Assembly: GCA_963971285.1 (NCBI GenBank)
Contig: OZ020247.1
Span: 15,334,614-15,398,613 of the forward strand
Length of the DNA stretch: 64,000 nt
From: Astropecten irregularis
Lineage: Eukaryota > Echinodermata > Asteroidea > Paxillosida > Astropectinidae
Direction of reading: 5' to 3'
Made by a program: the position numbers and the translations under genes. Positions 12,383-34,803 of this stretch are shown piece by piece. Positions within the stretch are counted from its first letter, which is position 1. Every line of letters begins with the position of its first letter. Below the pieces are notes generated by a model that saw nothing but the letters and a program-made list of their open reading frames with translations, was not told the DNA's origin and made no database searches.

Positions 12383-13428
12383 GTAAGTTTACTTTCTCTA
12401 CAAATTGTCAACTATCTTCCGTCATGAAAAAGATGGACACCGTCATGTATTCTGTGTTATTGTAGACCATTACTCACCTCTGATCATTTTGAGTGCGCTA
12501 TTTGGGTGGCAGGTAATTACAATCTGTCATTTGGAATGATTTTAGTCGTTCTATTCAGCACCTTACGTTTTCGTATTAAGAAACTTTTCGTGATCAACGG
12601 CCGTTTTATGTGTCAACTCAACGTTTTTTTTTTAATGTTAGCTTTCAGTTTTCACTGTAACGATATCGATTAAGCCATTTGATAAGGGGAACCCAGTGAA
12701 CCCACTTGTTAACTGGTTGGAGTAATGTGGTATGTATACAGGTACGTTGGGGTCAGTCACGCGGCCTAGCAAAGCGGCCGGTCAGTCAGCCTTGCGGTAG
12801 ATCATATCCTGGGAAAGAGACGCAGACTAATTAAGAAGACTCAATCGATGTGAACAATAATTTGAAGGTTTTTTTTATACTTATCAGTGTCGTGTAATTA
12901 CTAATTCTTAGCTGTTAAGTACAGCTACTGCTGCCCATGCTGTCAACCTAGGGCCAATACTAAATAGTATATTTCGTGAATTCCATTGATAGTCTGGGTT
13001 CAATTTTTGTGAGCGCCAAGGCAAGAGGCAGCTCTCTTTCCGTAACATGTTCAAACTATGTTTTTGCCATGGTACTTCGAAGTATATATCAGAAAAATAA
13101 TATGAACTGTGAATCGCAGTTTAAAATAAGTTTCACTGTTTCAAAATGTTTCCTTTGATTATAATCATCTAGGTTTAATAGAAAATCCAATCAGTTAATA
13201 AATCACTGTGGCAATCAATGCGATGTTATTGGTTATACTGGTGTGATTCTTTCTTAAGCTGCAGCCATTTCTTTGTGATCCTCCTTCACCGTACTGCATG
13301 GTGGAAATCTTTATCAAGTTAAAATCTAATCCAATGAACAAAAAAATATTCCAATTTCAAATGGTCTGATTTTATCATTTGCATCAGAACTTGGAATTGG
13401 GGCGCAATTTTATCGCTTGGCCTCGGGC

Positions 13429-14504
13429 TTGATGAAGGAGATCTCGCATCCAGCGATGACCGTGACCGGGTCGTGGCGCGATTCAAAGCAGAGCGGTCAA
13501 TATACTCGCTGCCGGCTGATCTCGAATTCCAAGTATCTGAGTCTGGAGATTTGTGGGTCAAGTGGGGTCGTGACTGGAAACTCTTGACATGGAAGAATGA
13601 TCTAACAAAGTTTCTGAGCAGTTCTTCAATCGAGAGATATGGGGTACTCTTGGCCCGAGCCTTGGGAGTGACGCCTGATGGTGCCCCGCAGTCCCGTGAT
13701 ATTCTCGATGAACTGATTAACTCTGCAGAAAAGGCCGATGCGGCTGTCCAAGCAAGCGCCGATGACACTGATAAGAGCGTTGATAATCTCAGTATGTCAA
13801 TTGAGTCAATTACCGCAGAAGACATCCTGCCCCTTAGAGACCTTCTAGGACTCGACAGAGCTCTGAGAGATTTGCGTGGCACAAAAGCGGTGCAAGAGAG
13901 CAAAAAGGTTTCTCTCCAACAGGCAATCGCGGATCTTCGCAACGAACTTGAGCGCCCTGGGACGTCTGAACGAGCTGATCAAATCGAGCGTGAAATCCAA
14001 AAGGCTGAAGAGCAGCTCGCAGCAACCCAAGAAAGCATCGACACCCTCAACCTACAACTCCGATCGCAGGTCCGCCAAATCCGAGAGACTATAACAAGGG
14101 TCTTAGACAAAAACACAAGCCTGGCCGAGCGGCTGCGGACTCTGTTCCGCGAGCAGGGCGTCACCATAGCCAGCATTATAACTGCGCTTGGCTTCATCAT
14201 CAGCACTCTGATCCTTGCCTTGACTGGCGGGTCCGGGGTTGCACCACCTCCCACACCTCCCACGCCCCCAAATAAGTAGGGGATAAAAGAGTGGGCAAAA
14301 AAGCACTTGCAAGCTCTCGGGCACACATTAGCCCAATTGGCTGGAAAGGCCGCAGCCGCGCTACCCGGCATCATCGGAAGCATTATATCTTGGCTCCTCA
14401 ACCTCTTGAGTAAAACTGCCGGCTGGCTTGCAGAAAACCTGTGGGCACTCGTGGTTGCCATCGGCGGCCTGTTGATCGTGATTGTGCGAGAGCGGCTAGC
14501 GTAG
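13429..14504 (+). pseudogene. cluster ORF A: coiled-coil membrane protein, nonsense-broken
   Basis: Open from the cluster edge without an in-frame ATG, so its 5' end is probably lost. It reads in order: a short beta-rich segment (around SIYSLPADLEF and WKLLTW), an acidic linker, a long heptad-type coiled coil (about 13850-14110), a hydrophobic helix (TIASIITALGFIISTLILAL), a Pro-rich PPTPPTPP hinge, then a second Gly/Ala-rich amphipathic region with a further membrane segment (LWALVVAIGGLLIVIV). A TAG at 14277-14279 cuts it after the Pro-rich hinge. The copy at 33276 has GAG there, so this is a point mutation in copy 1. Function unknown. Confidence 0.65.
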
Positions 14505-14714
14505 AGCAAGCCAACCCAGGCCAACAGCTACACCAACAACAACCAGTGCGGTGAGTCCGTCGTAGTGGGCTTGCACCTCCGGTTGTATTGCAACGTGTGG
14601 GACCGCCTCGACTGGTGTTGCAACGGGCGCCTTGACTGGATGCAGCTGTGTTGTCGGTTGTATCGCAACGGGTGCCTCTACTGGCTGTGCTGGCCCTGCA
14701 GCTGGCCCCTCCAT
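14496..14714 (-). CDS. cluster ORF B: small Pro/Ala-rich single-pass membrane protein
   Basis: 72 residues. The N-terminal 50 are rich in Pro, Ala, Val and Gln with repeated PVxAPVA and AIQP words, and a single C-terminal membrane helix (LTALVVVGVAVGLGWLAL) follows. It is intact in both cluster copies, differing at one residue by my reading. Its stop overlaps the end of ORF A tail to tail by 9 bp, and it starts 12 bp after the stop of ORF C/D on the same strand. No family recognised. Confidence 0.5.
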   Translation of the reverse strand: MEGPAAGPAQPVEAPVAIQPTTQLHPVKAPVATPVEAVPHVAIQPEVQAHYDGLTALVVVGVAVGLGWLALR

Positions 14715-14726
14715 ATCGTACGACTG

Positions 14727-16026
14727 TTATTGAGTCGAGACGTTTATGTTGGTGTTGATACCTATTTTTTGCCCCGGTTCTGCGACAACTATCTCATTGT
14801 TGTAGTCTTGAATGGTTCCAATATGAAGCTCCATGTCGCCGGGAGCCATATACAACCCGACCCCAAAGACGAAGTTTACCTTAGAGCGGGCGTATCGAAG
14901 CTTGTCCTGGTAGCGCGCTATCGCACTCGGGAGGTCCACGGGACTCGCGATTGCATCTTCAACGTTCGCCAAGAACTGTTTCTGGGCGTCAAATGCGGTG
15001 CCAGTGCCGATGATGCTCGTGCGGGTCTGGCCTTCCCCCCCTAGGATGGCCCAGACATATGTGCGGATAGAGTCGTTGATTCTTTCAACCCCGACCTGGG
15101 TAAACCCTTCCGTCTTGCCGAGTATAAAGGTCCTCCATGCCGTTTCTCCAACATCACCTTGGTCTATATAGTCTATAGTATATGGGTTTCCTGCGACACC
15201 AGATGCTGAAAATGACATGAGGTCTTTCCGATATGTGTTTGACGTCAGATGTTTGCTTGGTTCAAGGATCTTTCTGAGCATGTCACTCACTTGTTTGATA
15301 GGTCGCATCTTTCCATAATACCAGTGATATAGCGTTCCAAGCCCATTATTTTCGCTAAGTTTTTGTCGCCAGTCGGTGTGTGGAGAGACACCCAGTGGCG
15401 TCGCCAAGGGGGGGCCAGGGGGGGCACGTGCCCCCCAGGAAAACCTCGTGCCCCCCCCTCGTGCCCCCCCCCCATTTGAGATTTGGGTTGGCGAAAAAAA
15501 TATAATATATATTATTGTAGTGCCCCCCCCCCCAACAATTGCTAGTGCCCCCCTTGTGCCCCCCCAGACTCAAAAGTCTGGTGACGCCACTGGAGACACC
15601 AAACTCCGCGCAGATGCGTTCATACGCCCTCTGGTTGTATGGGGTGTCAAAGGCATCCCACATGTCGTCCTGTGGGAGCGGCACTTGCATCTCTTCAAGA
15701 ATCCTGCGGATTTGGTAGTACACATGGAAACGATAGAGCGATCGCACCATCGGGGTCTCAGAGTTAATATGGTCCTCTGTAGAGACACCGCACCCTGTGG
15801 TAGCACACCACACTGCAAAGTTGACCTTGTTTTGCCAAAATTTCATCGGGCTTGAATTCCAAGCCTGGACAACTTTGTCTGAGGTCACCCGCGGCAGACG
15901 ATATTTTTTTAAGACGTCGGGGTACTGCGCTTCGAACCATTCGTCGAACTCGCCGGGAATGCTCGATCGTATCTGAACGCGGGCTTCGACGAGTTGTGGC
16001 ACACTCTTTGCGCCGGTACTGCGCAT
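14727..16026 (-). pseudogene. cluster ORF C/D: unknown structural-type protein, split by a MITE
   Basis: Two minus-strand frames (start near 16026, stop at 14727) in different phases meet at the hAT-like insertion 15393-15592. Insert plus duplicated target is 208 bp, which is 1 modulo 3 and exactly accounts for the frame change, so one ORF of about 360 codons existed before. The upstream part is rich in Trp and aromatic residues (WCATTGCGVS, SLYRFHVYYQIRRIL). The downstream part has TSIIGTGTAFDAQKQF and a Gly/Asn-rich end. The size and beta-rich look suggest a capsid or other structural protein, which is inference only. The cluster copy at 33276 has lost this gene. Confidence 0.6.
15393..15592. 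mobile_element. hAT-like MITE with 8-bp target duplication
   Basis: 200 bp with ends CAGTGGCGTCGCCA and TGGTGACGCCACTG, flanked on both sides by GAGACACC (15385-15392 and 15593-15600). The interior is runs of C and G. Terminal CAGTG and an 8-bp duplication are hallmarks of the hAT superfamily. Non-autonomous. It interrupts ORF C/D. Confidence 0.92.
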
Positions 16027-16071
16027 CGCTATTAAACTGAAACGGTGACGCCATAATATAATCTGGCTATC

Positions 16072-16759
16072 ATGTATCAGACGATATTCATAACACTGAC
16101 TCAACTTCAAAATGGAGAGGCCACGACTCTACAATCGGTTGTAGATAATACAGGCGGCAAGCTCTATATCGCCCTCCGAGAACTCCATTATGAGGTTGGC
16201 TATCACAACATGGGTTCATCGTCTGAAATTTTGTGGCGCTCTGAGTCTACTCATGGAGCTCGGAGGATTATGGTTCCGCCTGGGTTATATACCATTGAAC
16301 ACCTATCGACATTTTTCATGGAAGTGATTCCTGGTTTAACATTCAATATATCCAAGGCAACTGGTGTGATCACGCTCAATATCCCAGGGTCTGATGGCGA
16401 GATAAGACTCAGTAGTGATTTACGCCGGATTTTGGGCATTGACGAAAAGGGTTGGTTTGGTGGGATATGAGGGAGACAACCCGGTACAATTTATTCCCCA
16501 CAAGTGGTTTTATATTTATCTTGACCAACTCTCAACTAGCTCTAATCATGTTGATGGTGCTCCCTCGACCCTGTTTGCGATAGTCCCAGCCGCAGCTGGT
16601 GGTACTGTAAACATAACCCCTCCATACCCCATGTATAAAAAATTACAAATTGGACATATCCATCAATTAAATATACGTGTGTTAGATGAAAAAGGTGTGG
16701 TAGTGAAAAACCATCAGATACCCATCACCGCAGTTCTTGAGATTCGAGAAAATGCCTAA
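16072..16759 (+). pseudogene. cluster ORF E: capsid-accessory-like protein, frameshifted
   Basis: The ATG at 16072 lies 45 bp from the divergent start of ORF C/D. The first frame (to 16470) shows PPGLYTIEHLSTFF, a beta-rich stretch, and SSDLRRILGI. The second frame (to 16759) continues with YEGDNPVQFIPHKWFYIYLD and a beta-rich C-terminus. They are out of phase around 16465, and the copy at 38723 is out of phase at the same place by a different amount. The PG-Y...L then LRRILG layout recalls minor capsid or penton-like proteins of virus-derived invertebrate elements. This is a weak resemblance. Confidence 0.5.
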
Positions 16760-17401
16760 GCTGCCAACAGCGCCGCCAGTCGAGACGACTGAAATAGAGT
16801 CGATATATCCTAAGCTCGATCCACCCGGGTCGCAACAAGACGAGGGGTCTAGCTTTCGTCTGACTGAAATCCGCGACCTAGAGCGCCGCCTAGAGCACGA
16901 GAGAGCTGAAAGAGCCAAGCTATACAAAAAATACCGCAGAGCTATCAACGTCGTTGATGGTGTTGACACAGTATTGGTCGCATCTAGTATTGGAATGGGT
17001 GCGGCGGGTGTGGGCCTGCTCTCCACGATCATAGCCGCACCCGTTGTCGTTGCACTCGAGGCGGCTGCTCTCGTTTGTGGTCTGACCGGTATTGCCGGGA
17101 AATACGTCTCACGGCGGCTCCTAGTAAAAGCCGAAAACGCGACGAGATTCGCATTCTCGCCCTATCTAAGCTCAACAGCATAACGGATGTGATCATAACG
17201 GATGGGCACATCTCCCAATCCGAGTTCAAGCTCGTATTCGAGGAGGTAGAAAAATATAGCCAAATGAAGGCTGATATTCAGAAAAAATCTCGCAAAGCTT
17301 ACACCGCTCAAGGGAGCGAAGTGGCAAAAAACGAGCTCATGGCCGAGGCCCTAGCCTTACTAATGAAAGAGCTCGCTGCCAAGCAACCGACATCGAAATA
17401 A
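16752..17401 (+). pseudogene. cluster ORF F/G: coiled-coil plus glycine-rich membrane protein, frameshifted
   Basis: The ATG at 16752 overlaps the ORF E stop by 8 bp. The first frame (to 17183) has a charged coiled coil (LERRLEHERAERAKLYKKY), then a Gly/Ala-rich hydrophobic hairpin (MGAAGVGLLSTIIAAPVVV), then RRLL. The second frame (open by 17075, to 17401) carries a helical charged domain (DEIRILALSKLN, HISQSEFKLVFEEVEKY). The join needs a one-base shift at an A run near 17140. The same shift is in the second cluster copy, so it predates the duplication or reflects frameshifting. Function unknown. Confidence 0.6.
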
Positions 17402-17711
17402 AATGTGGTTGCTTCAAACTTGTTTATACATCGCGCACATCCCCTGATCGCCCGCCGCCATATTGCAACCCGCCGTAGCCTGCGTCAGTAGCTGGCCCTG
17501 CCCAACCGTTTAATGTGAGCCTTTTAATCGGTTGGCAGTACAACCGTTTCTGTTTTGCACACACGCCTTAATGATTAACACCAAGGCTGGTGCCAATCAT
17601 CAACCCGGCACGCGCCACAGAGTGACCTTTGGACCGCTACAACCAACCACACGCCTGGGCTAGCGAGTGGCAAGGGCGGGTGCGCCAGAACCCCCATTTT
17701 TTATACTACTT
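17402..17711. other. noncoding right part of the cluster
   Basis: GC-rich. It contains an inverted repeat CCAACCG ... CGGTTGG (about 17501-17537). About 140 bp of it (17569-17710) reappears inverted at about 47250-47392 next to a LINE fragment, so it may be a terminal or mobile piece. Confidence 0.5.
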
Positions 17712-18071
17712 TATATAACACCTTAGTAGATCCTTGTCATTTGATTGGAGGATTGTATGTCACGTGATATTTGATAAATAGACCAATTCATGGCTTACGT
17801 CACAGCCGTTAAAATTTGTTCCATCCACCGTGTATTTTTGGTTCCATCCGATTTGTACCATTGTACGCCAGGGACTCTAATACGTGATTGGTCAAGCGGC
17901 GTTCCATTTATTTGTCACTGCGTGCGCGCGTACGCGTTGGTGTGCAACGCGCGTTACTGTAATTAGAGCATATAGTTTGCCAAGATTTTAAGCTTTTTTT
18001 GTCTCGCGAGCTCTTAAAATGTTATCCTCCAATCAAAATCAAATGACAAAGATCTACTTAGATGTTATATA
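17712..18071. repeat. inverted-repeat element (about 40-bp arms)
   Basis: The left arm TATATAACACCTTAGTAGAT (17712) and the right arm ending GATCTACTTAGATGTTATAT (18071) are near reverse complements, both extending inward through ATTGGAGGAT. Noncoding. Repeated at 40169-40528. Confidence 0.75.
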
Positions 18072-18072
18072 A

Positions 18073-18208
18073 AACAAATAATGAATGTTTCACATTCGTA
18101 GAATGGAAAAAATAATTTCATTCGGCTTCGCCTCGTGAAATGGAACAGTCCATCTGTCACCTCATGAAATTATTTTTACCATTCCACTCATAAACATTCA
18201 TTATTTGT
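18073..18208. repeat. palindromic MITE-like element
   Basis: The ends ACAAATAATGAATGTTT and its reverse complement enclose a second inverted pair around AATAATTTCA / TGAAATTATT. 136 bp, noncoding. Repeated at 40530-40665. It borders the restart of the receptor block. Confidence 0.8.
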
Positions 18209-18236
18209 ATAGAGGAACACCGCTAGAGTCTGGACC

Positions 18237-18243
18237 TATAAAA
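18237..18243 (+). promoter_or_regulatory. TATA box, type A (copy 5)
   Basis: TATAAAA in the same context as 325. The sequence immediately upstream is now the cluster-end palindrome instead of array spacer, so only about 25 bp of the original upstream region is kept. Confidence 0.55.
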
Positions 18244-18571
18244 TGTCATCCCCAATATTGAGCAAGTTTGGATCGTAGCACTAGCCTCTTATATTCTAGG
18301 AAACTACGAGCTGAACGAAGTCGAGATAAATGCCACAGTGTGGGGATTTATATCCTTTCAGAGTATCGATGCTTGGCCGGCGAGGACCCGTTCTTTCACC
18401 GGTGTGTTTTTAGGATCGCCACTGGCAAACTCACTAAAGCCAGACTTTTTATTGATGTGAGACTTCTAAAGCTTCATTTTCTTGTAATTTCAAAACATTT
18501 TCCAAAACGAAGACGCAGTATAATTAAACATCGTGGACTGGATTTCTGGTCTTTCAAGAAGCTAATCCATC

Positions 18572-19702
18572 ATGGGATCAGGCATAACATCAGGTGAGTG
18601 CAGTGAAGAGAACACTATTAACATCACCGAAGAGACAGTTTCTGAGTGGCTGTATACTTCAACTGATGTCACGATCACAACCATCGTCATACCGATTATT
18701 TGGTGTCTTGGTATCCTCACTAACTCGTGTTTTCTCTTTGTCGTGTACCGTGTACCTGCAATGAGATCAGAGACTGGTGTTTACTTAGCAAACTTGGCAG
18801 TCGCTGATATACTCTATCCGAGTTTATCCGCTATGAGACATATCTGGAGATATACAGTATCGCCAGTGGTGTCCCACTATCCATTCGTGAATTCGGCAGA
18901 ATGTGTCAGTTATTTGCTTCCTATGCATGTCTTATATTACTTTGGCATTGCATTGGTAACCATGGTCACATATGAGAGATATCTTGCACTGTGTTATCCC
19001 ATTAAACATCTTCAAATCCGTGGACGACAACGAACCTGTAAAATGGTTGCCATCTGCTGGCTGGCGGGGTTCGTATGTGGAGGGTCACTTATTCCTGCTT
19101 TTGGTAAACTAAACTTGACTTGTCTGCGATGGCCTACAAACAAAAATTCAGGATTACCGTCATCTTATGCACGCTGTGGGTTCGTACAGCCGTGGGTTGT
19201 ATATTACTATGTTCCACTGGATAACATTTTCTGGCTGATTGCATTGGTATATAACGTGTACATGTACATCCACATCGTACAAACATTACGCAAGCGAAAG
19301 AAATTGAATTGCAGAAATGAAAAGAAGCAATCAAGCCAAGTTGCCAAGATGTTGGTAGTCAATGGTGTTGTATTCTTCCTATGCCAGGCCCCATATTACG
19401 TCATATCTCTTACTGCCTGGATCTGTGACGTAGCCCAAATACCTAATCCAATCACTACTGCGCTGGGAAATTGGTCTACAGCTTCTTTGATTGGCCTAGC
19501 ACCTCTGTATTTGAATTCGATGGTGAATCCATTGATATACAATGCAATGAGTTCACAATACCGAGCTGCGTTTCGTCAAGCATTCCAGCGAAGAAGGCGA
19601 CAGAAACAGCCAGGTTCCACTCATCTTCCTTTATCCATCAGTCAAGCAAGAAACCAAAATGTTACCATGGAAACTGCAGGAAGACCACATGAAGACATTT
19701 GA
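18572..19702 (+). CDS. rhodopsin-class GPCR, array copy 5 (type A)
   Basis: Intronless 376-residue receptor with a complete set of class A landmarks (TM1 GILTN, TM2 LANLAVAD, ERY, FFLCQAP, NPLIY). Closest to the copies at 655 and 41013, sharing extracellular loop 2 LTCLRWPTNKNSG and a loop 3 of RKRKKLNCRNEKKQSSQ. The tail is slightly shorter (LPLSISQ) and ends HEDI. The upstream leader has the 27-codon uORF at 18330-18413. Intact. Confidence 0.95.
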   Translation: MGSGITSGECSEENTINITEETVSEWLYTSTDVTITTIVIPIIWCLGILTNSCFLFVVYRVPAMRSETGVYLANLAVADILYPSLSAMRHIWRYTVSPVVSHYPFVNSAECVSYLLPMHVLYYFGIALVTMVTYERYLALCYPIKHLQIRGRQRTCKMVAICWLAGFVCGGSLIPAFGKLNLTCLRWPTNKNSGLPSSYARCGFVQPWVVYYYVPLDNIFWLIALVYNVYMYIHIVQTLRKRKKLNCRNEKKQSSQVAKMLVVNGVVFFLCQAPYYVISLTAWICDVAQIPNPITTALGNWSTASLIGLAPLYLNSMVNPLIYNAMSSQYRAAFRQAFQRRRRQKQPGSTHLPLSISQARNQNVTMETAGRPHEDI

Positions 19703-20811
19703 GTCGTTTTTACATTATTTTACACGATCTGTTTAATTATGATTTACCATTAGACTCTGCATAGTCATACACCGCTCAGTGGTATGTATCTATCGGTAAA
19801 GTTGCTTGGATTCAAATTGATAGAATGATTATCACAGGTATTAAATCATAGTCTTAACATTTTTTGAGAAATTGAGATACACGTAGGCATACCTTCGTAG
19901 CAGTTTGAAAGTGTTTATTGTGTTTGAACTTTTCTTCTTTATGCACTATATAGACAAATAACAAACTGCAAAAGAATGTACTGCCGCAGGCTGTGTTAAC
20001 CATTTTGTACGTAACGTCTTTATATCGACCACTTGGTTCCTCTTTGACCCGAATTGGACTCGGTTCCGCACCGCCCAATGCACGCAGCGTCATCAAGATT
20101 CAATTAATGTGGAACAAGACAACATGCATTAAATACGGCATTTCTCCCTGTTCTGTGTGGAGCTTTGGGAATGTTTTTACTAGGTATAGATGTGACCCAT
20201 TTTTAATGCAAAATACAAATATCCATTTCCGTCCCTGGCTCTAACGGGCAACTGTAACTCTTCAACTTGAGTGGCTTTCGGCCTTATTTAGGGCAATTTC
20301 CCGCGCATTATGGAGGAAAACAAAATTAATATCGTGCAGGCTGGACAGTGCATAGGCCTGCTATACTGACAGTGTGGCAGGAATTGAAGATCATTCAATA
20401 CTGCATGACTGTCTTGAGAACTGCGAACGATGACAGCAGATGACGCAGTTCAGAGTGAATTGAAGCTTGATTCACGTTTAGATAGCGTCGGCTTCGAGAG
20501 AGATATGTTTTCCAAATCGTCATAGTTGCAGGAAAGACTGTGTGAACAAACTGTTTGGTTTTATATTTTGATTTGACGAATACTGGAAATAACGTTTGCC
20601 GATCAGTAGTTCAAGCAGTTCCAAAAATGTTAAGATGCAGTAACGCAATTCGGCATTTGAACCGTATTTCTAAGAGAGACACACGCGGAGCTTGGTCTTA
20701 TGAAAGCTTTATTTTTGCTGATTGAGAGGAAACAAACGTTCATACCAATAAGAAGGGATAACGTGAAGATTGGTACTGTAATTGTGTGCATTTTCAAGAC
20801 GATAATCCATT
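19703..20811. other. 3' region of copy 5 and type C upstream region
   Basis: Noncoding and paralogous to 8474-9581 and 42144-43255. No supported gene or clear core promoter. Confidence 0.55.
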
Positions 20812-21966
20812 ATGGGATCAGGCATAACATCAGGTGAGTGCAGTGAAGAACACACTATTAACATCACCGAGGAGACAGTTTCTGAGTGGCTGTATTCTTC
20901 AACTGATGTCAAGATCATAACCATCGTCATGCCGATTATTTGGTGTCTTGGTATCCTCACTAACTCGTGTTTTCTCTTTGTCGTGTACCGTGTGCCTTCA
21001 ATGAGAACGGAGACTGGTATTTGCTTAGCAAACTTGGCACTCGTCGATGCAGTCTATCCGGGTTTATCCGCCTCGAGGCATATCTGGAGATATACAGTAT
21101 CGCCAGTGGTGTTCCACTATCCATTTGTGAATTCGGCAGAATGTTTTAGTTATCTTCTTGGCGTTTACTCTTTATACAACATTGGCATTGCACTGGTGAC
21201 CGTGGTAACATATGAAAGATATTATGCATTGTGCCATCCCATTCAACATCTTCAAATCCGCGGACGTCGACGAACCTGGAGAATGGTTGCCATCGGCTGG
21301 CTTTTGGGATTCATCACTGGTGTCGTTCTGTCCCCTGCTTTTGGTAAATCAGCATGGTCGTGTCTACGGTGGCCTGAAAACAACAAATATTCGGGATTTC
21401 CATCAGCTTATGCATACTGTGGATTGGTACAGCCGTGGGTTGTGTATTACGAAGTACCTCTTGACAGTATAACGTGGCTGATTGTAGCAGTATCTAACGT
21501 GTACATGTACATTCGGATCATGGGAACATTAAACAAGCGAAAGAAATTAAATTGCAGAAAAGAAAACAAGAAGATGAGCCAACAATCAAACCAAGTTGCC
21601 AAAATGCTGGTAGTCAATGGTGTTGTATTCTTCCTATGCCAGACCCCATATTACTTCATATCTGTCACTGTGTGGATCTGTGACATAGTCCAGATACCCA
21701 ATCCAATCGATTCTGCACTGGGAAATAGGTCTACAGCTTCTTTCATTGGCCTAGCACCACTGTATGTGAATTCAATGGTGAATCCATTGATTTACACCGC
21801 TTTAAGTTCACAATACCGAGCTGCGTTTCGCCAAGCATTCCTCATGCGAAGGGGGCGACAGATACAGCCAAGTTCTACCGTCTTCTTTAATCAGTCAAGC
21901 CAAGCAAGACAACATAGCGTTTCCATGGATACTTCCAGACCTCGCGAAGAAAATTGCGTTGGTTAA
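20812..21966 (+). CDS. rhodopsin-class GPCR, array copy 6 (type C)
   Basis: Intronless 384-residue receptor. Class A marks: GILTN, TM2 LANLALVD, ERY (YERYYALCHP), FFLCQTP, and NPLIY with TALSSQYRAAFRQAF. Type C features are QHLQIRGRRRTWRM in loop 2, loop ECL2 SAWSCLRWPENNKYSG, a loop 3 with NKKMSQQSNQ, and a tail ending EENCVG. Nearly identical to the copy at 43256. Intact. Confidence 0.95.
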   Translation: MGSGITSGECSEEHTINITEETVSEWLYSSTDVKIITIVMPIIWCLGILTNSCFLFVVYRVPSMRTETGICLANLALVDAVYPGLSASRHIWRYTVSPVVFHYPFVNSAECFSYLLGVYSLYNIGIALVTVVTYERYYALCHPIQHLQIRGRRRTWRMVAIGWLLGFITGVVLSPAFGKSAWSCLRWPENNKYSGFPSAYAYCGLVQPWVVYYEVPLDSITWLIVAVSNVYMYIRIMGTLNKRKKLNCRKENKKMSQQSNQVAKMLVVNGVVFFLCQTPYYFISVTVWICDIVQIPNPIDSALGNRSTASFIGLAPLYVNSMVNPLIYTALSSQYRAAFRQAFLMRRGRQIQPSSTVFFNQSSQARQHSVSMDTSRPREENCVG

Positions 21967-22000
21967 TAAGTTGAAGTATAGTCGTGTGTTACACATACGT

Positions 22001-22196
22001 ATGGTGACTTTAAAGGGACATCGCAAACAAATATTGACGCCAATATTGACGCCAATATTCGCGACTTTTACCCCAAGTCGCAAATATGTACGTCAATATT
22101 CAGACGCCAATATTTACGACATGGCCTCAAGTCGCGAATAATTGGCGTCAATATTTGCGTCAATATTTGTTTGCGATGTCCCTTTAAAGCCACCAT
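22001..22196. mobile_element. palindromic MITE (as 10772-10966)
   Basis: Same ends and interior as the element after copy 4, about 35 bp after the stop codon of the receptor. An orthologous insertion carried by duplication. Confidence 0.85.
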
Positions 22197-25100
22197 ACAT
22201 ACGAGATAACTGAATTAGTGTGTAACAGTTACCATTTCAAGTAAGTTGGGGCAATTGTAATGAACATGAAACGATTTTCTTCTTTCCTTTGGAGCATTAA
22301 TATCTTGGACAGTGATATGCAGCTTAGCTATATATTTTGTGATCAGCTTTGAAAGATAGCCAAATCATTGCAATCGTTCAGAATGTGTAATTCATGGTTA
22401 TAATGTAAACAATTTCAAATTTTGTTTCAAAATTGTTTTAAATTTTATTAGATTATTTTGGCACGATACAGCTTGCAGGACAGCCATTGAAAGTAATCAA
22501 TCTATATCTGAAATATTGCACAAGTTGTATTCATTCAATACCAGCACCTACTTTTTAAAGGTATAATACACGATTGGGAAAGGTCAGAGAACAGCGCTCA
22601 TTACTTTGTCTAATTCAACATGTACTGTCATAAACACAATCATGCAGCTATGTAAATTTTGAGCTCAATGGGACATCTGAGCTTCGAGAAAATAGCGAAA
22701 AAAACATAATGAATGGTCTTTATCTTACCCCGAGATGAAACTTTTTTCGGTCTTTGTTTTACTAATTTCTGAAAAAATACACCATTTCAGGCGGATATAT
22801 TTTAACGGTATGTTTCTATCAGCACCATCTTCATACCCTGAAAGTTATACGTAACATTGAGTATGTTACCAATCATGTAGTATTGTGCCCTTAATAATGA
22901 TTTCCAAAGTTTGACACACATTTAGGAGAAACGCCTCTGGGAGATGTTCTATGAATAGGTTGAGTCCGATGCAGCGTCATCACTTAAATGGTATGTTTCC
23001 ACCATCACCATCTTCATGTCCTGAAAGTTATATGTAAATCTGTGAACATTTCTGTTTGGGTTTATTACCAATCCTGTACTGTACCTGAAATATACTGGAA
23101 CCTTTGATTTATCTTATTGAACTATGATTGATTAAGTCTAAATCCGTTGAGCTTGTTTAAATATATTAATGTTTTGTAATGTATAATGTTTGAATCTATT
23201 TATACACTTATCTATCTCAAAGTAGGTTATGACATCATTGATTAAGCTCCTCATTTACATATGACCTTTGTGCGGCAGTGTGACGTTACGTCAGTCAGTA
23301 AGTGATGAAATAGGGGCCATATTTTTGACACATCTTTGTAGAATTTCACTTTGTAATTATGTCAATTTCTATAAATACTACGTGTAAATATCTAATTTTA
23401 CATAATTGGCTATGTCCCGGCCGGGACACGGTAACCAGTCTATGTTGAGCACTTGCCTTGTCACTCTTACACTTGGTATTCATACGACAAAATCTAGTAC
23501 CGGTTATGACTATCTATTTTCATCAATCCGGTCAATAATGCATTCTTTTTGGATATTACGTTGAACAAATTATAATGTAATTTTGCCATTTTTAATTTTG
23601 TTTGATAACGCCCCAAAATATTTTTAGGGAAGTTTTTGTCAGTAAAAGTTTAATATCGTTGCGCGAAGAACTCCGCCGTGGCCAGCGCGCGCAACTCTGC
23701 CTTTCTTGCAGCATATTCCGCGTGGCATGGACGTAAGTTTACTTTTTCTACAAATTGTCAACTATCTTCCCGTGAAAAAGATGGACACGGTAATGAATTC
23801 TGTGTTATTGTAGACCATTACTCACCCCTGATCATTTTGAGTGCGCTATTTGGGTGACAGGTAATTACAATCTGTCATTTGGAATGATTTTAGTCGTTCT
23901 ATTCATGCACCTTACGTTTTCGTATTAAGAAACTTTTCGTGATCAACGGCCGTTTTATGTGTCAACTCAACGGTTTTTTGTTTATTGTTAGCTTTCAGTT
24001 TTCACGGTTACGATATCGATTAAGCCATTTGATAAGGGGAACCCAGTGATTTTGTGTGAACCCACTTGTTAACTGGTTGGAGAAATGTGGTATAAATTAT
24101 AATAATTACGTTGGGGTCTGTCACGCGGCCTAGCAAATTAAAGCGGCCGTTAGTCAGCCTTGCTTTAGATCATATCCTTGGAAAGAGACGCAGACTAATT
24201 AAGAAGTCTCAATCGATGTGAACAATAATTTGAGGTTTTTTTTTTTTTTTTTAATACTTATCAGTGTCGTGTAATTACTAATTCTTAGCTGTTTAGTACA
24301 GCTATACTGCTGCCCATGTTTTCAGCCTAGGGCCAATAGTATTCTTCATGAAGTCCATTGATTGTCTGGGTTCCATTTTTGTCAGCGTCAGGGCATGCAA
24401 GAGCTAGGCAGCTCACTTTCCATAACATGTTCAAACTATGTTTTTTGTCATGATACTTTGAACTGTATATCAGAAAAATTATGTGACATGTGAATTGTAT
24501 ATAGTTAAAATTCTGAGTTTCACTTTTTCACTTTTTTTCCTTTGATTATCATCTAGGTTTAATAGGAAATCCAATCAGTTAATAAATCACTGTGGCAATC
24601 AATGCGATGTTATTGGTTATACTGGTGTGATTCTTTCTTATAAGCTGCTGCCATTTCTCTATGATCCTCCTTCAATGGTGGAAATCTTTATCAAGGTATT
24701 GGAAATCTAATCCAATGAACAAAAAAATATTCCAATTTCAAATGGTCTGATTTTATCATTTGCATCAGAATCGCAATTTTATCGCTTGGCCTCAGGCGCC
24801 GTTTTCCTTTGCTAATGTAGGCCTACGTACGTCGCTGATAACAAGACAGTGTGAGGGGGAGGTGGATCACGCACTGCAAACGTGCGTCATCACCACTTGA
24901 AGGGCATTACTAGAGGCAGACTTATCATGGTAATTGCAAGAAGTTGGTCAGTCCATCAAGTCTCAAGCCATTATCAAAGTATCAACATCACACTTTCTGC
25001 TCCATTTCTTTATTTGCTATCAACATAAAGGCATCTGTCTCAAGGACGAGGGTAAAAGACTTGCTGAATTGGGAATGTAGGCCTATACGATTCATCAAGT

Positions 25101-25263
25101 GCTTTCACAAACAAACTTCAGAAGAACTCAAATACGAGTAATTGAATTAAAACTAGGCGCTAAGTAATGCACTTGCCACTCGTGGCCAGAATCGAGTTTA
25201 ATTCGCAAAATTATCTTGTTGTGATCGGTGTGTTGCATGAAGAACACGGCTAGAGTCTGGACC
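22197..25263. other. conserved flank and array spacer, block 2
   Basis: Paralogue of 10967-13428, followed at 24797 by about 450 bp of spacer that block 1 and block 3 lack because the gene cluster sits there. Contains the splice-flanked 21-nt segment (23712-23732) and a poly-T run near 24240. About 22735-23040 includes an internal near-tandem duplication, and part of it also recurs inverted near 51190-51345. No gene. Confidence 0.6.
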
Positions 25264-25270
25264 TATAAAA
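25264..25270 (+). promoter_or_regulatory. TATA box, type A (copy 7)
   Basis: TATAAAA in the conserved type A context. The downstream receptor is truncated, and the uORF start is lost here (ATT for ATG). Confidence 0.5.
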
Positions 25271-25587
25271 TGTCATCCCCAATATTGAGCAAGTTTCGAT
25301 CGCAGCACTAGCCTCTTGATCTAGGAAACTACGAGCTGAACGAAGTCGAGCTAATTGCCACAGTGTGGGGAATTCCATCCGTTTAGAGTATCGATGCTTG
25401 GCCGGCGAGGACCCGTTCTTTCACCGGTGTGTTTTTAGGATCGCCACTGGCAAACTCACTAAAGCCAGACTTTTTATTGATGTGAGACTTCTAAAGCTTC
25501 ATTTTCTTGCAATTTCAAAACATTTTTTCAAGACGCAGTATAAACATCGTGGACTGGATTTCTGGTCTTTCAAGAAGCTAATCCATC

Positions 25588-26172
25588 ATGGGATCAGGCA
25601 TAACATCAGGTGAGTGCAGTGAAGAGAACACTATTAACATCACCGAGGAGACAGTTTCTGAGTGGCTGTATACTTCAACTGATGTCACGATCACAACCAT
25701 CGTCATACCGATCATTTGCTGTCTTGGTATCCTCACTAACTCGTGTTTTCTCTTTGTCGTGTGCCGTGTACCTTCAATGAGATCAGAGACTGGTATATAC
25801 TTAGCAAACTTGGCAGTCGCTGATATACTCTATCCAAGTTTATCCGCTATGAGGCATATCTGGAGATATACAGTATCGCCAGTGGTGTCCCACTATCCAT
25901 TCGTGAATTCGGCAGAATGTGTCAGTTATTGGCTTCCTATGCATGTCTTGTACTACTTTGGCATAGCATTGGTAACCATGGTCACATATGAGAGGTATCT
26001 CGCATTGTGTTATCCCATTAAACATCTTCAAATCCGTGGACGACCACGAACCTTTAAAATGGTTGCCATCTGCTGGCTGGTGGGGTTCGTATGTGGAGGA
26101 TCACTAATTCCTGCTTTTGGTAAACTAAACTTGACGTGTCTGCGATGGCCTAAAAACAAATATTCAGTTTAG
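25588..26172 (+). pseudogene. rhodopsin-class GPCR, array copy 7 (type A), 3' truncated
   Basis: 194 codons match type A receptors through TM4 and into extracellular loop 2 (LTCLRWPKNK), then stop within two codons of a breakpoint at about 26168. From 26174 the sequence is the 50-bp hairpin and type B spacer matching about 6376-7339. TM5-TM7 are absent. The layout implies one deletion joining copy 7 to the spacer before the next type B gene and removing a copy 2 equivalent. It cannot give a working receptor. Confidence 0.92.
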
Positions 26173-27150
26173 AGGCTCTCCACAATAATGCTACACAGTA
26201 CGTTAGCATTATAGTGGAGAGTCGTTTTATACAATGCATGCAATATAATGGAGTTGAAGTTTGTCGCATTATACACGAATCCGACGAACAATTCGTGTAG
26301 TTAGCCCTGCGGTGTATCCCCCATAGTAATAGTGGGGCGTAGCCTTAATTCTTTTGTTGCCACACAAAAGGCGGACGGGGACACCGCAGTAATGGTGGAT
26401 GGTTTGTCGCACCGTCTGATCGGTGTATACCATCTGATTGCGATTTCACGAGAGAGTAGACAATGATTAGTTATAATAATACAGCTTGGAAGCTCCTTTT
26501 GATTAAAGGACAGAAACTGTCAATGTGAATCATTTCCAGCCCAAAAACCTCGCAATTTCCGACCTTAATATAATTATATAAACATTCCACTGACTCTTCT
26601 TGATTATATTTACACTGGAAACAGAACTTCATCTCCCATAGAAAGAGAAAGGAAAATAACTACAACGAATATTCCCCTTTTCATGCAAGACTGCCATTAC
26701 CGACTTAGCATTGTCACATAAGTATTTGATCCAGTCATGCATGCACATTATTGTGGGCATATAAAGATCTGTACCAACAAGTCACGTTTATTGTGCAGTA
26801 TCTTTGTGTCATCGTCCACTCACAGTATTGAGTACGTTGATGCCTTCTGATATTTTAATCTTCAAAGAGCAAGAAAATTATTTTCGGTGAAGCCAGAAAA
26901 TAAGTTCTCCTGAGAAGTGTGAATAACGTGAGATCAAGACGCAGCTATAATATGATATATTAGAAGATGTAACTTGGATGCCTACATCCAAACATTATTT
27001 TGAAGGAAGATGTTGGTGTAGCTCCAAAACGTTCCATGTACCATTCTGAGTGCTATCTGCAAACTGGAGGACTGATCAAAGCTACCCATCCAGCAGTCCG
27101 TTAACACTGCCAACCGGAATTGTATATTTCTTTAAATACCCAAATCCATC
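26173..27150. other. type B upstream region after the deletion junction
   Basis: Begins with hairpin 26174-26223, then tracks 6412-7339 closely, including the TATAAAG at 26760-26766. Noncoding. Confidence 0.6.
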
Positions 27151-28284
27151 ATGGGATCAGGCATAACATCAGGTGAGTGCAGTGAAGAAAACACTATTAA
27201 CATCACCGAGGAGACAGTTTCTGAGTGGCTGTATACTTCAACTGATGTCACGATCATAACCATCGTCATACCGATTATTTGCTGTCTTGGTATCCTCACT
27301 AACTCGTGTTTTCTCTTTGTCGTGTACCGTGTACCTTCAATGAGATCAGAGACTGGTATATACTTAGCAAACTTGACAGTCGCTGATATACTCTATCCGA
27401 GTTTATCCGCTATGAGACATATCTGGAGATATACAGTATCGCCAGTGGTGTCCCACTATCCATTTGTGAATTCGGTGGAATGTGTCAGTTATCTTCTTTT
27501 TGTTTATATCTTGTACTACGTTGGCATTGCATTGGTAACCATGGTCACATATGAGAGATATCTTGCACTGTGTTATCCCATTAAACATCTTCAAATCCGC
27601 GGACGACAACGAACCTGTAAAATGGTTGCCATCTGCTGGCTGGCGGGGTTCGTATATGGAGGATCGCAAATTCCTGCATTTGGTAAACTAAACTTGACGT
27701 GCCTGCGATGGCCTAAAGACAAAGATTCAGGATTACCGTCATCTTATGCATACTGCGATTTGGTTCAGCCGTGGGTTGCGTATTTCTATATTCCACAGGA
27801 AATCATTTTCTGGCTGATTGCAATGGTATATAACGTGTACATGTACATCCGCATCATACAAACATTAAGCAAGCGAAAAAAATTGAATTGCAGAAAAGAA
27901 AAGAAGCAATCAAGCCAAGTTGCCAAAATGCTGGTAGTCAATGGTGTTGTATTCTTCCTATGCCAGGCCCCATATTACTTCATATCTCTTACTGCCTGGA
28001 TCTGTGAAGTAGCCCAAATACCTAATCCAATCACTGCTGCGCTGGGAAATTGGTCTACAGCTTTTTTTAGTGTCCAAGCACCACTGTATTTGAATTCGAT
28101 GGTGAATCCATTGATATACAATGCAATGAGTTCACAATACCGAGCTGCGTTTCGTCAAGCATTCCAGCGAAGGAGGCGACAGAAACAGCCAGGTTCCATT
28201 CATCGTCCTCCTTCATCCATCAGTCAAGCAAGAAACCAAAGTGTTACCATGGAAACTGCAGGAAGATCACATGAAGACATTTGA
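27151..28284 (+). CDS. rhodopsin-class GPCR, array copy 8 (type B)
   Basis: Intronless 377-residue receptor, nearly identical to copy 3 (7340): LANLTVAD here replaces LANLAVAD in TM2, next to the conserved Asp. ERY, FFLCQAP, FFSVQAPLY and NPLIY are all present. The flanks on both sides are also nearly identical, placing both genes in one recent duplication. Intact. Confidence 0.95.
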   Translation: MGSGITSGECSEENTINITEETVSEWLYTSTDVTIITIVIPIICCLGILTNSCFLFVVYRVPSMRSETGIYLANLTVADILYPSLSAMRHIWRYTVSPVVSHYPFVNSVECVSYLLFVYILYYVGIALVTMVTYERYLALCYPIKHLQIRGRQRTCKMVAICWLAGFVYGGSQIPAFGKLNLTCLRWPKDKDSGLPSSYAYCDLVQPWVAYFYIPQEIIFWLIAMVYNVYMYIRIIQTLSKRKKLNCRKEKKQSSQVAKMLVVNGVVFFLCQAPYYFISLTAWICEVAQIPNPITAALGNWSTAFFSVQAPLYLNSMVNPLIYNAMSSQYRAAFRQAFQRRRRQKQPGSIHRPPSSISQARNQSVTMETAGRSHEDI

Positions 28285-29381
28285 GTCGTTTTTACAGATT
28301 TTGCATGAACTGTTTAATTGTGATTTACCATTGGACTCTGCACAGTCATACACCGCTCAGTGGTATGTCTCTATCGGTAAAGTTGCTTGGATTCAAATTG
28401 ATAGAATGATTATCACAGGTATTAAATCATAGTCTTAATATTTGAGAAATTGAGATACACGTATAGGCCTACCTCCGTAGCGGTTTGAAAGTGTTTATTG
28501 TGTTTGAACTTTTTTTCTTTATGCACTATATAGACAAAGAACAAACTGCAAAAGAATGTACTGCCGCAGGCTGTGTTAACCATTTTGTACGTACGTCTTT
28601 ATATCGACCACTTGGTTTCTCTTTGACCCGAATTGGACTCGGTTCCGCACCGCCCAATGCACGTAGCGTCATCAAGATTCAATTAATGTGGAACAAGCCA
28701 ACATGCATAAATACGGCATTTCTCCCTGTTCTGTGTGGAGCTTTGGGAATGTTTTTACCAGTTAGATGTGACCCATTTTTAATGCAAAACACAAATATCC
28801 ATTTCCGTCCCTGGCTCTAACGGGCAACTGTAACTCTTCACCTTGAGTGGCTTTCGGCCTTATTAAGAGCAATTTTTCGCGCATTATGGAGGAAAACAAA
28901 ATTAATATCGTGCAGGCTGGACAGTGTATAGGCCTGCTATACTGACAGTGTGGCAGGAATTGAAGATCATTCAATACTGCATGACTGTCTTGAGAACTGC
29001 GAACGATCCATATGCAGTTCAGTGTGAATTGGAGCTTGATTCACGTTTAGATAGCGTCGGCTTCGAGAGAGATATGTTTTCCAAATCGTCATAGTTGCAG
29101 GAAAGACTGTGTGAACAAACTGTTTGGTTGTATATTTTGATTTGACGAATACTGGAAATAACGTTTGCCGATCAGTAGTTCAAGCAGTTCCAAAAATGTT
29201 AAGATGCAGTAACGCAATTCGGCATTTGAACCGTATTTCTAAGAAAGACACACGCGGAGCTTGGTCTTATGAAAGCTTTATTTTTGCTGATTGAGAGGAA
29301 ACAAACGTTCATACCAATAAGAAGGAATAACGTGAAGACTTGGTACTGTAATTGTGTGCATTTTCAAGACGCTAATCCATC
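28285..29381. other. 3' region of copy 8 and type C upstream region
   Basis: Noncoding. Close paralogue of 8474-9581. A single segment near 29005 is altered or shortened relative to the other copies. No gene. Confidence 0.55.
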
Positions 29382-30539
29382 ATGGGATCAGGCATAACAT
29401 CAGGTGAGTGCAGTGAAGAAAACACTATTAACATCACCGAGGAGACAGTTTCTGAGTGGCTGTATTCTTCAACTGATGTCAAGATCATAACCATCGTCAT
29501 ACCGATTATTTGCTGTCTTGGTATCCTCACTAACTCGTGTTTTCTCTTTGTCGTGTACCGTGTGCCTTCAATGAGAACGGAGACTGGTATTTACCTAGCA
29601 AACCTGGCAATAGTTGACGTAGTCTATCCAAGTTTATCCGCCTCGAGGCATATCTGGAGATATACAGTATCGCCAGTGGTGTTCCACTATCCATTTGTGA
29701 ATTCGGTGGAATGTTTTAGTTATCTTCTTGGCGTTTACTCTATATACAACATTGGCATTGCACTGGTGACCGTGGTAACATATGAAAGATATTATGCATT
29801 GTGCCATCCCATTCAACATCTTCAAGTCCGCGGACGTCGACGAACCTGGAGAATGGTTGCCATCGGCTGGCTTTTGGGATTCATCACTGGTGTCGTTCTG
29901 TCCCCTGCTTTTGGTAAATCAGCATGGTCGTGTCTACGGTGGCCTGAAAACAACAAATATTCGGGATTTCAATCGGCTTATGCATACTGTGGATTGGTAC
30001 AGCCGTGGGTTGTGTATTACGAAGTACCTCTTGACAGTATAACGTGGCTGATTGTAGTAGTATCTAACGTGTACATGTACATTCGGATCATGGGAACATT
30101 AAACAAGCGAAAGAAATTAAATTGCAGAAAAGAAAACAAGAAGATGAGCCAACAATCAAACCAAGTTGCCAAAATGCTGGTAGTCAATGGTGTTGTATTC
30201 TTCCTATGCCAGACCCCATATTACTTCATATCTGTCACTGCGTGGATCTGTGACGTAGTCCAGATACCAAATCCAATAGATTCTGCACTGGGAAATAGGT
30301 CTACAGCTTCTTTCATTGGCCTAGCACCACTGTATATGAATTCAATGGTGAATCCATTGATTTACACCGCTTTAAGTTCACAATACCGAGCTGCGTTTCG
30401 CCAAGCATTCCTCATGCGAAGGGGGCGACAGATACAGCCAAGTTCCACCGTCTTCTTAAATCAGTCAAGCCAAGCAAGACAACACAGCGTTTCCATGGAA
30501 ACTCCCAGACCTCGCGAAGAAAATTGCGTCGGTAAATAA
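29382..30539 (+). CDS. rhodopsin-class GPCR, array copy 9 (type C)
   Basis: Intronless 385-residue receptor with type C features: RRRTWRM, SAWSCLRWPENNKYSG, loop 3 KKMSQQSN, and NPLIYTALSSQ. The TM2 stretch differs from the other type C copies (LANLAIVDVVYPSLSA), a cluster of changes that could be a conversion tract. It ends EENCVGK, one residue longer than copies 6 and 11. Intact. Confidence 0.95.
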   Translation: MGSGITSGECSEENTINITEETVSEWLYSSTDVKIITIVIPIICCLGILTNSCFLFVVYRVPSMRTETGIYLANLAIVDVVYPSLSASRHIWRYTVSPVVFHYPFVNSVECFSYLLGVYSIYNIGIALVTVVTYERYYALCHPIQHLQVRGRRRTWRMVAIGWLLGFITGVVLSPAFGKSAWSCLRWPENNKYSGFQSAYAYCGLVQPWVVYYEVPLDSITWLIVVVSNVYMYIRIMGTLNKRKKLNCRKENKKMSQQSNQVAKMLVVNGVVFFLCQTPYYFISVTAWICDVVQIPNPIDSALGNRSTASFIGLAPLYMNSMVNPLIYTALSSQYRAAFRQAFLMRRGRQIQPSSTVFLNQSSQARQHSVSMETPRPREENCVGK

Positions 30540-30553
30540 GTTGAAGTATACGT

Positions 30554-30723
30554 ATGGTGGCTTTAAAGGGACATCACAAACAAATATTGACGCCAATATT
30601 GACGCCAATATTCGGGACTTTTACCCCAAGTCGCAAATATGTACGTCAATATTCAGACGCCAATATTTACGACATGGCCTCAAGTCGCGAATATTGGCGT
30701 CAATGTCCCTTTAAAGCCACCAT
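30554..30723. mobile_element. palindromic MITE, internally shortened
   Basis: Same element as 10772-10966 with the inner part of the right arm missing (AATATTGGCGTCAATGTCCC). Confidence 0.8.
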
Positions 30724-33275
30724 ACATACGAGATAACTGAATTAGTGTGTAACAGTTACCATTTCAAGTAAGTTGGGGCAATTGTAATGAACATGAAACG
30801 ATTTTCTTCTTTCCTTTGGAGCATTAATATCTTGGACAGTGATATGCAGCTTAGCTATATATTTTGTGATCGCTTTGAAAAATAGCCAAATCATTGCAAT
30901 CGTTCAGAATGTGTAATTCATGGTTAATGTAAACAATTTCAAATTTTGTTTCAAAATTGTTTTAAATTTTATTAGATTATTTTGTCACGATACAGCTTGC
31001 AGGACAGCCATTGAAAGTAATCAATCTATATCTGAAATATTGAACAAGTTGTATTCATTCGATACCAGCACTTACTTTTTAAAGGTATAATACACGATTG
31101 GTTAAGGTCAGAGAACAGCGCTCATTACTTTGTCTAATCCAACATGTACTGTCATAAACACAATCATGCAGCTATGTAAATTTTGAGCTCAATGGGACAT
31201 CTGAGCTTCGAGAAAATAGCGAAAAAAACATAATGGTATGTTTCCACCATCACCATCTTCATGTCCTGAAAGTTATATGTAAATCTGTGAACATTTCTGT
31301 TTGGGTTTATTACCAATCCTGTACTGTACCTGCAATATACTGGAACCTTTGATTAATCTTATTGAACCATGATTGATTAAGTCTAAATCCGTTGAGCTCG
31401 TTTAAATATATTAATGTTTTGTAATGTATAATGTTTGAATCTATTTATACACTTATCTATCTCAAAGTAGGTTATGACATCATTGATTAAGCTCCTCATT
31501 TACATATGACCTTTGTGCGGCAGTGTGACGTTACGTCAGTCAGTAAGTGATGAAATAAGGGCCATATTTTTGACACATCTTTGTAGAATTTCACTTTGTA
31601 ATTATGTCAATTTCTATAAATACTACGTGTAAATATCTAATTTTACATAATTAGCCATGTCCCGGCCGGGACACGGTAACCAGTCTATGTTGAGCACTTG
31701 CCCTGTCACTCTTACACTTGGTATTCATACGACAAAATCTAGTACCGGTTATGACTATCTATTTTCATCAATCCGGTCAATAATGCATTCTTTTTGGATA
31801 TTACGTTGTACAAATTATAAATTTAATTTTGACATTTTTATTTTTGTTTAATAACGCCCTAAAATAATTTTAGGGAAGTTTTTGTCAGTAAAAGTTTAAT
31901 ATCGTTGCGCGAAGAACTCCGCCGTGGCCAGCGCGCGTACCTGGGCCCTTTTCCAAACCTCGGCTCCGGCTCAGGCTCCGGCTCCGGCTCCATTTCGTGA
32001 ACCCATTCTAAAATAACGGGTAGCAAAATAGAGACTTTTGGCTATGGTGTGGAAGTAGATACTCTGGTTTGAACCAGAAAACAGAGATTCAGCTTCAATA
32101 AAAAGCCACAAGCTATATTTTCAGCATATGGATGACAGCGCTGGAGCCGGAGCCTGAGCCGGAGCCGAGATTTGGAAAAGGGCCCTAGCTCTGCCTTTCT
32201 TGCAGCATATTCCGCGTGGCATGGACGTAAGTTTACTTTTTCTGCAAATTGTCAACTATCTTCCGTCATGAAAAAGATGGACACCGTCATGTATTCTGTG
32301 TTATTGTAGACCATTACTCACCCCTGATCATTTTGAGTGCGCTATTTGGGTGACAGGTAATCACAATCTGTCATTTGGAATGATTTTAGTCGTTCTATTC
32401 AGCACCTTACGTTTTCATATTAAGAAATTTTTCTTGATCAACGGCCGTTTTATGTGTCAACTCAACGATTTTTTTTTAATGTTAGCTTTCATTTTTCACG
32501 GTAACGATATCGATTAAGCCATTTGATAAGGGGAACCCAGTGAACCCACTTGTTAACTGGTTTCTAGTAATGTGGTATGTATACAGGTACGTTGGGGTCA
32601 GTCACGCGGCCTAGCAATTAAGCGGCCGTCAGTCAGCCTTGCGGTAGATCATATCCTGGGAAAGAGACGCAGACTAATTAAATCTCAATCGATGTGAACA
32701 ATAATTTGAGGTTTTTTTTAATACCTATCAGTGTCGTGTAATTACTAATTCTTAGCTGTTTAGTACAGCTACTACTGCCCATGCTGTCAGCCTAGGGCCA
32801 ATACTGAATAGTATTTTTCATGAAGTCCATTGCATGATAGTCTGGGTTGCATTGTTGTCAGCGCCAGGGCAAGAGGCAGCTCTCTTTCCGTAACATGTTC
32901 AAACTATGTTTTTGCCATGGTACTTCGAAGTATTATCAGAAAAATTATATGAACTGTGAATCGCAGTTTAAAATTAGTTTCACTTTTTCAAAATGTTTCC
33001 TTTGATTATAATCATCTAGGTTTAATAGAAAATCCAATCAGTTAATAAATCACTGTGGCAATCAATGCAATGTTATTGGTTATACTGGTGTGATTCTGTC
33101 TTAAGCTGCAGCCATTTCTTTGTGATCCTCCTTCACCGTACTGCATGGTGGAAATCTTTATCAAGTTAAAATCTAATCCAATGAACAAAAAAATATTCCA
33201 ATTTCAAATGGTCTGATTTTATCATTTGCATCAGAACTTGGAATTGGGGCGCAATTTTATCGCTTGGCCTCGGGC
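30724..33275. other. conserved flank, block 3
   Basis: Paralogue of 10967-13428 with a 243-bp MITE inserted (31943-32185). Keeps the 16-bp palindrome and the 21-nt splice-flanked segment (32206-32226). No gene. Confidence 0.6.
31943..32185. mobile_element. MITE with GGGCCCTTTTCCAAA ends
   Basis: The inverted ends GGGCCCTTTTCCAAACCTCG and near reverse complement carry repeats of GGCTCC. The interior has TTCTAAAATAACGGG and CTCTGGTTTGAACCAGAAAA. Absent at the same site in the other three flank copies, so it inserted after duplication. A diverged relative in opposite orientation lies at 53529-53759. Confidence 0.88.
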
Positions 33276-34352: not shown

Positions 34353-34562
34353 AGCAAGCCAACCCAGGCCAACAGCTACACCAACAACAACCAGTGCGGT
34401 GAGTCCGTCGTAGTGGGCTTGCACCTCCGGTTGTATTGCAACGTGTGGGACCGCCTCGACTGGTGTTGCAACGGGCTTCTTGACTGGATGCAGCTGTGTT
34501 GTCGGTTGTATCGCAACGGGTGCCTCTACTGGCTGTGCTGGCCCTGCAGCTGGCCCCTCCAT
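34344..34562 (-). CDS. cluster ORF B, copy 2
   Basis: 72 residues, as at 14496-14714, with one visible difference (VKKPVA for VKAPVA). Intact with the same C-terminal membrane helix. The only cluster ORF open in both copies. Its partner gene upstream on the minus strand has been deleted here. Confidence 0.5.
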   Translation of the reverse strand: MEGPAAGPAQPVEAPVAIQPTTQLHPVKKPVATPVEAVPHVAIQPEVQAHYDGLTALVVVGVAVGLGWLALR

Positions 34563-34783
34563 ATCGTACGACTGTGATGGAGTCGAGGGTTCATCGTCTG
34601 AAATTTTGTGGCGCTCTGAGTCTACTCATGGAGCTCGGAGGATTATTAGTAACCCTATATTAGGGTTCATCTGTGAAAAAATTTTATGAAAAGGTTTTTC
34701 AACTGATTTGAGTAGGTATGGGTGTCAACATTTACCAAAAAAAAGTTAGGTGGGGTAGGGGGTGGGGAAAGTACTTTTTCTCG

Positions 34784-34803
34784 AGGTCAAAGGTCATTGA
34801 CCT
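34784..34803. promoter_or_regulatory. composite nuclear-receptor-like site in the TIR
   Basis: AGGTCAAAGGTCATTGACCT combines a direct repeat of AGGTCA spaced by 1 and an inverted repeat spaced by 1. Repeated at 34946-34965 and, inverted, at 38394-38413 and 38556-38575. Binding is not shown by sequence alone. Confidence 0.4.

Follow-up and report, generated by a model that had tools for sequence, protein, structure and literature searches.

A block of broken, virus-like genes lies within a tandem array of rhodopsin-type receptor open reading frames (ORFs) in the genome of Astropecten irregularis, in a 64,000-nucleotide stretch of contig OZ020247.1, referred to here as the window. This block, at positions 13429–17710, is probably the truncated right end of an endogenous Maverick/Polinton-type virus, with a penton and a membrane-associated module for which the analysis turned up no counterpart, because it is bounded by a terminal inverted repeat with AGTAGT//ACTACT ends and contains a gene, E, whose relative is predicted to adopt a penton-like structure. 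Besides E, it holds three further genes, A, C/D and F/G, and the latter two belong to conserved families. The features of the element and its copies are as follows.

13429–17710, no strand assigned: first copy of the right-hand piece of the element; the left edge is a host junction and the right edge the element terminus
13429–14504, plus strand: gene A, broken; 5′ part lost at the junction, in-frame stop at 14277–14279, coiled coil and proline-rich hinge
14496–16054, minus strand: gene C/D (B+C+D), broken by an N-terminal frame change, an inserted element and a stop codon just ahead of its hydrophobic tail
About 15391–15594, no strand assigned: short inverted-repeat element resembling a miniature inverted-repeat transposable element, ends CCAGTGGCGTCGCCA / TGGTGACGCCACTGG, inserted in C/D
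16072–16759, plus strand: gene E, predicted penton-like, broken; frame change near 16465
16752–17401, plus strand: gene F/G, broken; frame change near 17126–17138, hydrophobic hairpin
17568–17710, plus strand: right terminal repeat, 143 bp, ending ...TATACTACT
33276–40167, no strand assigned: second copy, lying within a tandemly duplicated array unit; C/D body and start of E deleted, insert of about 4.1 kb in E
47250–47391, minus strand: terminal repeat in inverted orientation, forming an element's left end (AGTAGTATAAAAA...) where the host sequence of another array unit breaks off

The array units have intergenic DNA in common as well, so that units with and without the block serve as internal controls. 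The window contains 12 receptor-related ORFs of at least 140 amino acids, including 2 short ones, and the receptor ORF at 18572 matches the Pfam family 7tm_1 with an E-value of 2.9e-30. In a self-alignment of the window, 23366–24797 and 45447–46873 follow the block-bearing unit until 13428 and then diverge; because both alignments stop exactly there, 13429 is the junction with host DNA. Downstream of the block, alignment to other units resumes from 18212. An earlier note on this DNA had placed the block at 13429–17711, and its start coincides with the junction, whereas the end belongs at 17710. The same note had described the block as richer in guanine and cytosine (GC) than its surroundings, as 1-kb bins bear out: GC content is 44–55% in the five bins of 13001–18000, 32–43% in the 13 bins before the block and 35–44% in the 15 bins of 18001–33000. 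In the second copy (33001–40000), five of seven bins have 47–52%.

First, the ends of the element are of Maverick type. The right terminal repeat is identical to the inverted sequence of 47250–47391 at 142 of 143 bases, and at 47249/47250 the first base of AGTAGTATAAAAA is the exact point of departure from an element-free unit. The two termini read AGTAGT (at 47250)...//...ACTACT (ending at 17710), so both features by which Maverick/Polinton ends are recognized, terminal inverted repeats of tens to more than a thousand bp and the (AGT)2//(ACT)2 motif or a variant of it, are present, with the two ends sitting in different array units. Both ends presumably derive from one insertion. Among vertebrate Mavericks, (AGT)2//(ACT)2 is described as the commonest end, with repeats of 46–1,447 bp and 6-bp target duplications (PMC8097293). 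The 143-bp repeat falls within that range, a likeness to the Mavericks/Polintons of animals (polintoviruses), and its ends place next to these elements a block that the earlier note could assign neither to Polintons nor to any other named group. No copy keeps both flanks from which a target site duplication could be read, and next to the right end comes a further inverted-repeat element (17711–18073). It is the first of two that lie back to back directly at that end (17711–18208), and has 37-bp arms (17710–17746/18037–18073); the second has 17-bp arms (18074–18090/18192–18208). At the left end, about 240 bp of host sequence is duplicated (47011–47249 and 48351–48590, 95%) and flanks the remnant with the inverted terminal repeat. 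Taken as possible further element sequence, 47392–48350 gave no Pfam match for its two longest ORFs; we suspect that it holds pieces of a long interspersed nuclear element, and make no use of this here.

Second, gene E looks like a viral penton, that is, a capsid vertex protein, judging by a structure model. Its two frames are 81% and 88% identical to relative P0121, and 18 of 21 candidates proved to be homologues, at 43–81% identity. All structure models were made from relatives, not from the broken window proteins. A confident third to half of the model of the E relative resembles the mavirus penton, the adenovirus penton and a capsid chain of EhV-201, and a ‘putative penton’ of the MELD viruses is also among its structural matches. 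The penton gene (PX) of Mavericks/Polintons is thus represented solely by a predicted fold, over about 100 residues of the relative; the earlier note had suggested a comparison with penton folds. The sequence of E found no penton in the PDB, and the phage tail tube proteins (E-values 0.12–0.48) and others that this search returned were read as chance. To virophages and polinton-like viruses (mavirus, Tetraselmis viridis virus S1), the likeness is structural, at 10–14% identity, and no other shared gene was detected.

Third, two of E's neighbours are conserved families in sequence comparisons. Gene C/D had been described as separate genes B, C and D. C and B share a frame with a stop between them, D and C are separated by the inverted-repeat element at about 15391–15594, and each full-length relative consists of one protein, about 420–440 amino acids long, with a C-terminal hydrophobic tail resembling B; we therefore treat B, C and D as one gene, split by the stop and the inserted element, and B as its hydrophobic tail rather than a small membrane protein of its own. 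Against relative P0001, the D part is 87% and the C part 57% identical. Homologues number 141 among 154 candidates; among the 120 listed, identities are 43–87%, 109 come from the source ‘ena’ by our own count and 47 are at least 400 amino acids long, 38 of these having a C-terminal hydrophobic segment. Neither a PDB search with the C/D sequence nor Pfam searches with four relatives gave a match. The structure prediction that the earlier note had also wanted for this protein yielded a confident model of a relative, for which comparison with PDB and viral models gave nothing convincing; its fold is possibly new. Gene F/G likewise is a conserved family, with predicted hydrophobic segments: its two frames are 90% and 73% identical to relative P0139, homologues number 145 among 342 candidates, and among the 120 listed, identities are 41–90% and 60 matches are 195–235 amino acids long. 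The best Pfam hit of its relatives, DUF4781 (E-value 7.4e-4), lies below the cut-off.

Gene A encodes a coiled coil, up to three hydrophobic segments and a proline-rich hinge, much as had been proposed for it. The ORF to 14279 and the small ORF at 14307–14504 lie in the same frame with one stop between them and together make up the gene; in the second copy, ORF 33642–34352 continues through the position of that stop, with a separate break further upstream. The best Pfam hit, to the coiled coil of A (MAP65_ASE1, E-value 4.9e-4), is below the curated cut-off, and two PHROGs hits, to a family of unknown function (E-value 2.3e-5) and a tape measure family (E-value 8.6e-4), were read as coiled-coil likeness; for the other genes, PHROGs gave nothing at or under 0.1.

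The block accordingly has genes on both strands, as the earlier note had it, although the five or more ORFs counted there reduce to four broken genes, E and F/G each being one gene with a frame change. Of the tight spacings reported, the 9-bp tail-to-tail overlap (14496–14504) is present, and so, taking the ATG at 16752 as the start of F/G, is the 8-bp start/stop overlap (16752–16759). With a C/D start at 16054, to which its N-terminus points, the divergent start region would span about 17 bp (16055–16071) rather than the 45 bp given, and the supposed 12-bp gap between same-strand genes (14715–14726) falls inside C/D. The broader proposal that the block is the structural half of a virus or virus-like transposon holds up well, given the penton-like fold predicted for E, the terminal inverted repeat with its Maverick motif and the conserved relatives of E, C/D and F/G.

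The second copy matches the first in stretches of 97.1% and 98.6% identity. The frame change in F/G is at the same place in both, that in E is compatible with the same place, and because these positions agree, both changes probably predate the duplication. Private to one copy are the stop in A and, in copy 2, the deletion, the insert and a further frame change in E. The insert (34647–38722, about 4.1 kb) has inverted ends of about 565 bp that are 96.6% identical; an ORF within it (37108–37479) has a weak match, below the cut-off, to DUF6451 (E-value 0.0039), a domain that often adjoins reverse transcriptases. With all four genes broken and the left part missing, the copy here cannot work.

Might these be ordinary host genes, caught by chance between receptor genes? 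The block does stand among host receptor genes, and no Pfam model passes the cut-off for any of the four genes. Yet the terminal inverted repeat, the element-free unit in the same array, the compact overlapping genes, the predicted penton-like fold and the many relatives all run against this explanation, which we find scarcely credible.

Many relatives of C/D, E and F/G come from large contigs, from hundreds of kilobases up to megabases in size, which fits eukaryotic genomes, and the relatives are presumably from animals. By eye, among the matches listed, E and F/G share three equal contig sizes (46067, 37763 and 14351), equal size being a proxy only for the same contig; C/D and E share none among the matches listed, and no second genome with this gene order emerged from them. 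Contigs of sizes 1034 and 1204 with both C/D and F/G were not counted, being too short or from different sources. Scans of viral_contigs for relatives and for patterns, and of genome_contigs for relatives, found none. Judged by title and start of abstract, none of the papers listed in literature searches described this gene set; a Repbase consensus with unnamed ORFs may exist.

How the element relates to known viruses turns on its company. In addition to the ends, it shares with Mavericks/Polintons a penton-like gene and intronless genes on both strands. PX, the penton gene of Polintons, is reported to adjoin the major capsid gene PY or to lie one gene away (PMC4028283), and the vertebrate Maverick module comprises integrase, minor capsid, PW, major capsid and protease genes with accessory regions at the flanks, where PW, PZ and PM have no assigned role (PMC8097293). 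Here, by contrast, E neighbours C/D and F/G, and the fragment has no major capsid gene. Neither Pfam nor the models revealed a double-jelly-roll major capsid protein (PY) in the fragment, and Pfam found no core replication genes in its ORFs or in 10 other ORFs of the window; the left part, in both cases, is missing.

Adintoviruses are defined by an OTU-type PolB and a recognizable hexon sequence (PMC11071296), neither of which Pfam detects in the fragment, lacking as it does its left part. Adomaviruses are defined by a circular genome, a superfamily 3 helicase, a candidate penton and a Cah gene (PMC11071296); that the element is an integrated copy with terminal repeats speaks against membership, and Pfam finds no helicase in the fragment. 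The combination of penton, coiled-coil and holin-like hydrophobic proteins recalls adintoviruses, adomaviruses and other MELD viruses, in which the coiled-coil class Cah and the holin-like hydrophobic class Macc are described as defined by general fold only (PMC11071296), so that A and F/G resemble these classes in kind and are not assigned to them. A point of difference is that C/D found no convincing match among viral models.

The block could instead be the accessory cassette of an ordinary Maverick whose left part has the usual penton and major capsid genes; E would then be an additional penton-like protein, with host interaction, lysis or egress as the roles of A, C/D and F/G. Its position directly at the terminus and the lack of a major capsid gene beside E would suit this, whereas changing cargo would not be expected to be conserved at 41–90% identity, as C/D, E and F/G are, nor E and F/G to recur together on three contigs of equal size, by the proxy above. 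We consider the cassette unlikely. Very unlikely, in our estimate, is a separate virus lineage that kept Maverick-type ends but lost the double-jelly-roll major capsid protein, its shell being made of C/D or of C/D and E together. The missing major capsid gene beside the penton and the large, conserved C/D, confidently modelled without a convincing known match, speak for it, and for Xeno-class adomaviruses it has been proposed that a different protein took the place of the hexon (PMC11071296); against it, a normal major capsid gene may simply have been lost with the left part, and the hydrophobic C terminus of those 38 long C/D members is more in keeping with an anchored minor protein than with one that forms the shell. 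The odds we attach to these two alternatives and to the truncated Maverick/Polinton-type virus overlap somewhat and sum to above one.

Elsewhere in the window, the octamer TAGGCCTA occurs 12 times, compared with about 1 expected by our own estimate from base composition, and 60190–61250 is a tandem-repetitive stretch, both strands of which carry long ORFs (HWQNPIGPIGRI... and its reverse). On the minus strand, 53761–56882 contains PALP pieces (a pyridoxal-phosphate-dependent enzyme) that resemble host-gene exons, with Pfam E-values of 1.3e-10 (53761–54213), 2.9e-15 (55543–55818) and 7.8e-6 (56658–56882, below the cut-off); we take this gene to be of the serine racemase/threonine dehydratase kind.

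As the truncated end of a Maverick/Polinton-type virus, the element would have inserted into a receptor-array unit and later been duplicated along with it. When intact, it would have used its ends to integrate, copied its own DNA and formed particles with five-fold corners made of E; the missing left part is the expected place of genes for polymerase, integrase, ATPase, protease and major capsid protein. C/D, A and F/G may also be particle proteins. Because all three products carry hydrophobic segments (at the C terminus of C/D, in the F/G hairpin and up to three in A), a membrane-linked role is suggested, the likeliest being a vertex or core complex that would tie the capsid to a membrane or breach one, with C/D contributing a large folded part held by its tail. 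A bolder form of this proposal, which we regard as quite unlikely, is a Maverick-lineage animal virus with a membrane-containing particle, in which an E-penton vertex is joined to tail-anchored C/D, hairpin F/G and coiled-coil A, and C/D may replace the major capsid protein. If true, the particle would have an architecture not described before, and many public genome records would contain its relatives.

The block is of interest mainly because it points to a set of virus particle proteins not described before. Both C/D and F/G form well-conserved families with no Pfam model above the cut-off, and their link to a penton-like gene and Maverick ends makes their role testable. As long C/D and F/G relatives exist, gene content, particle proteins and structure are open to direct study.
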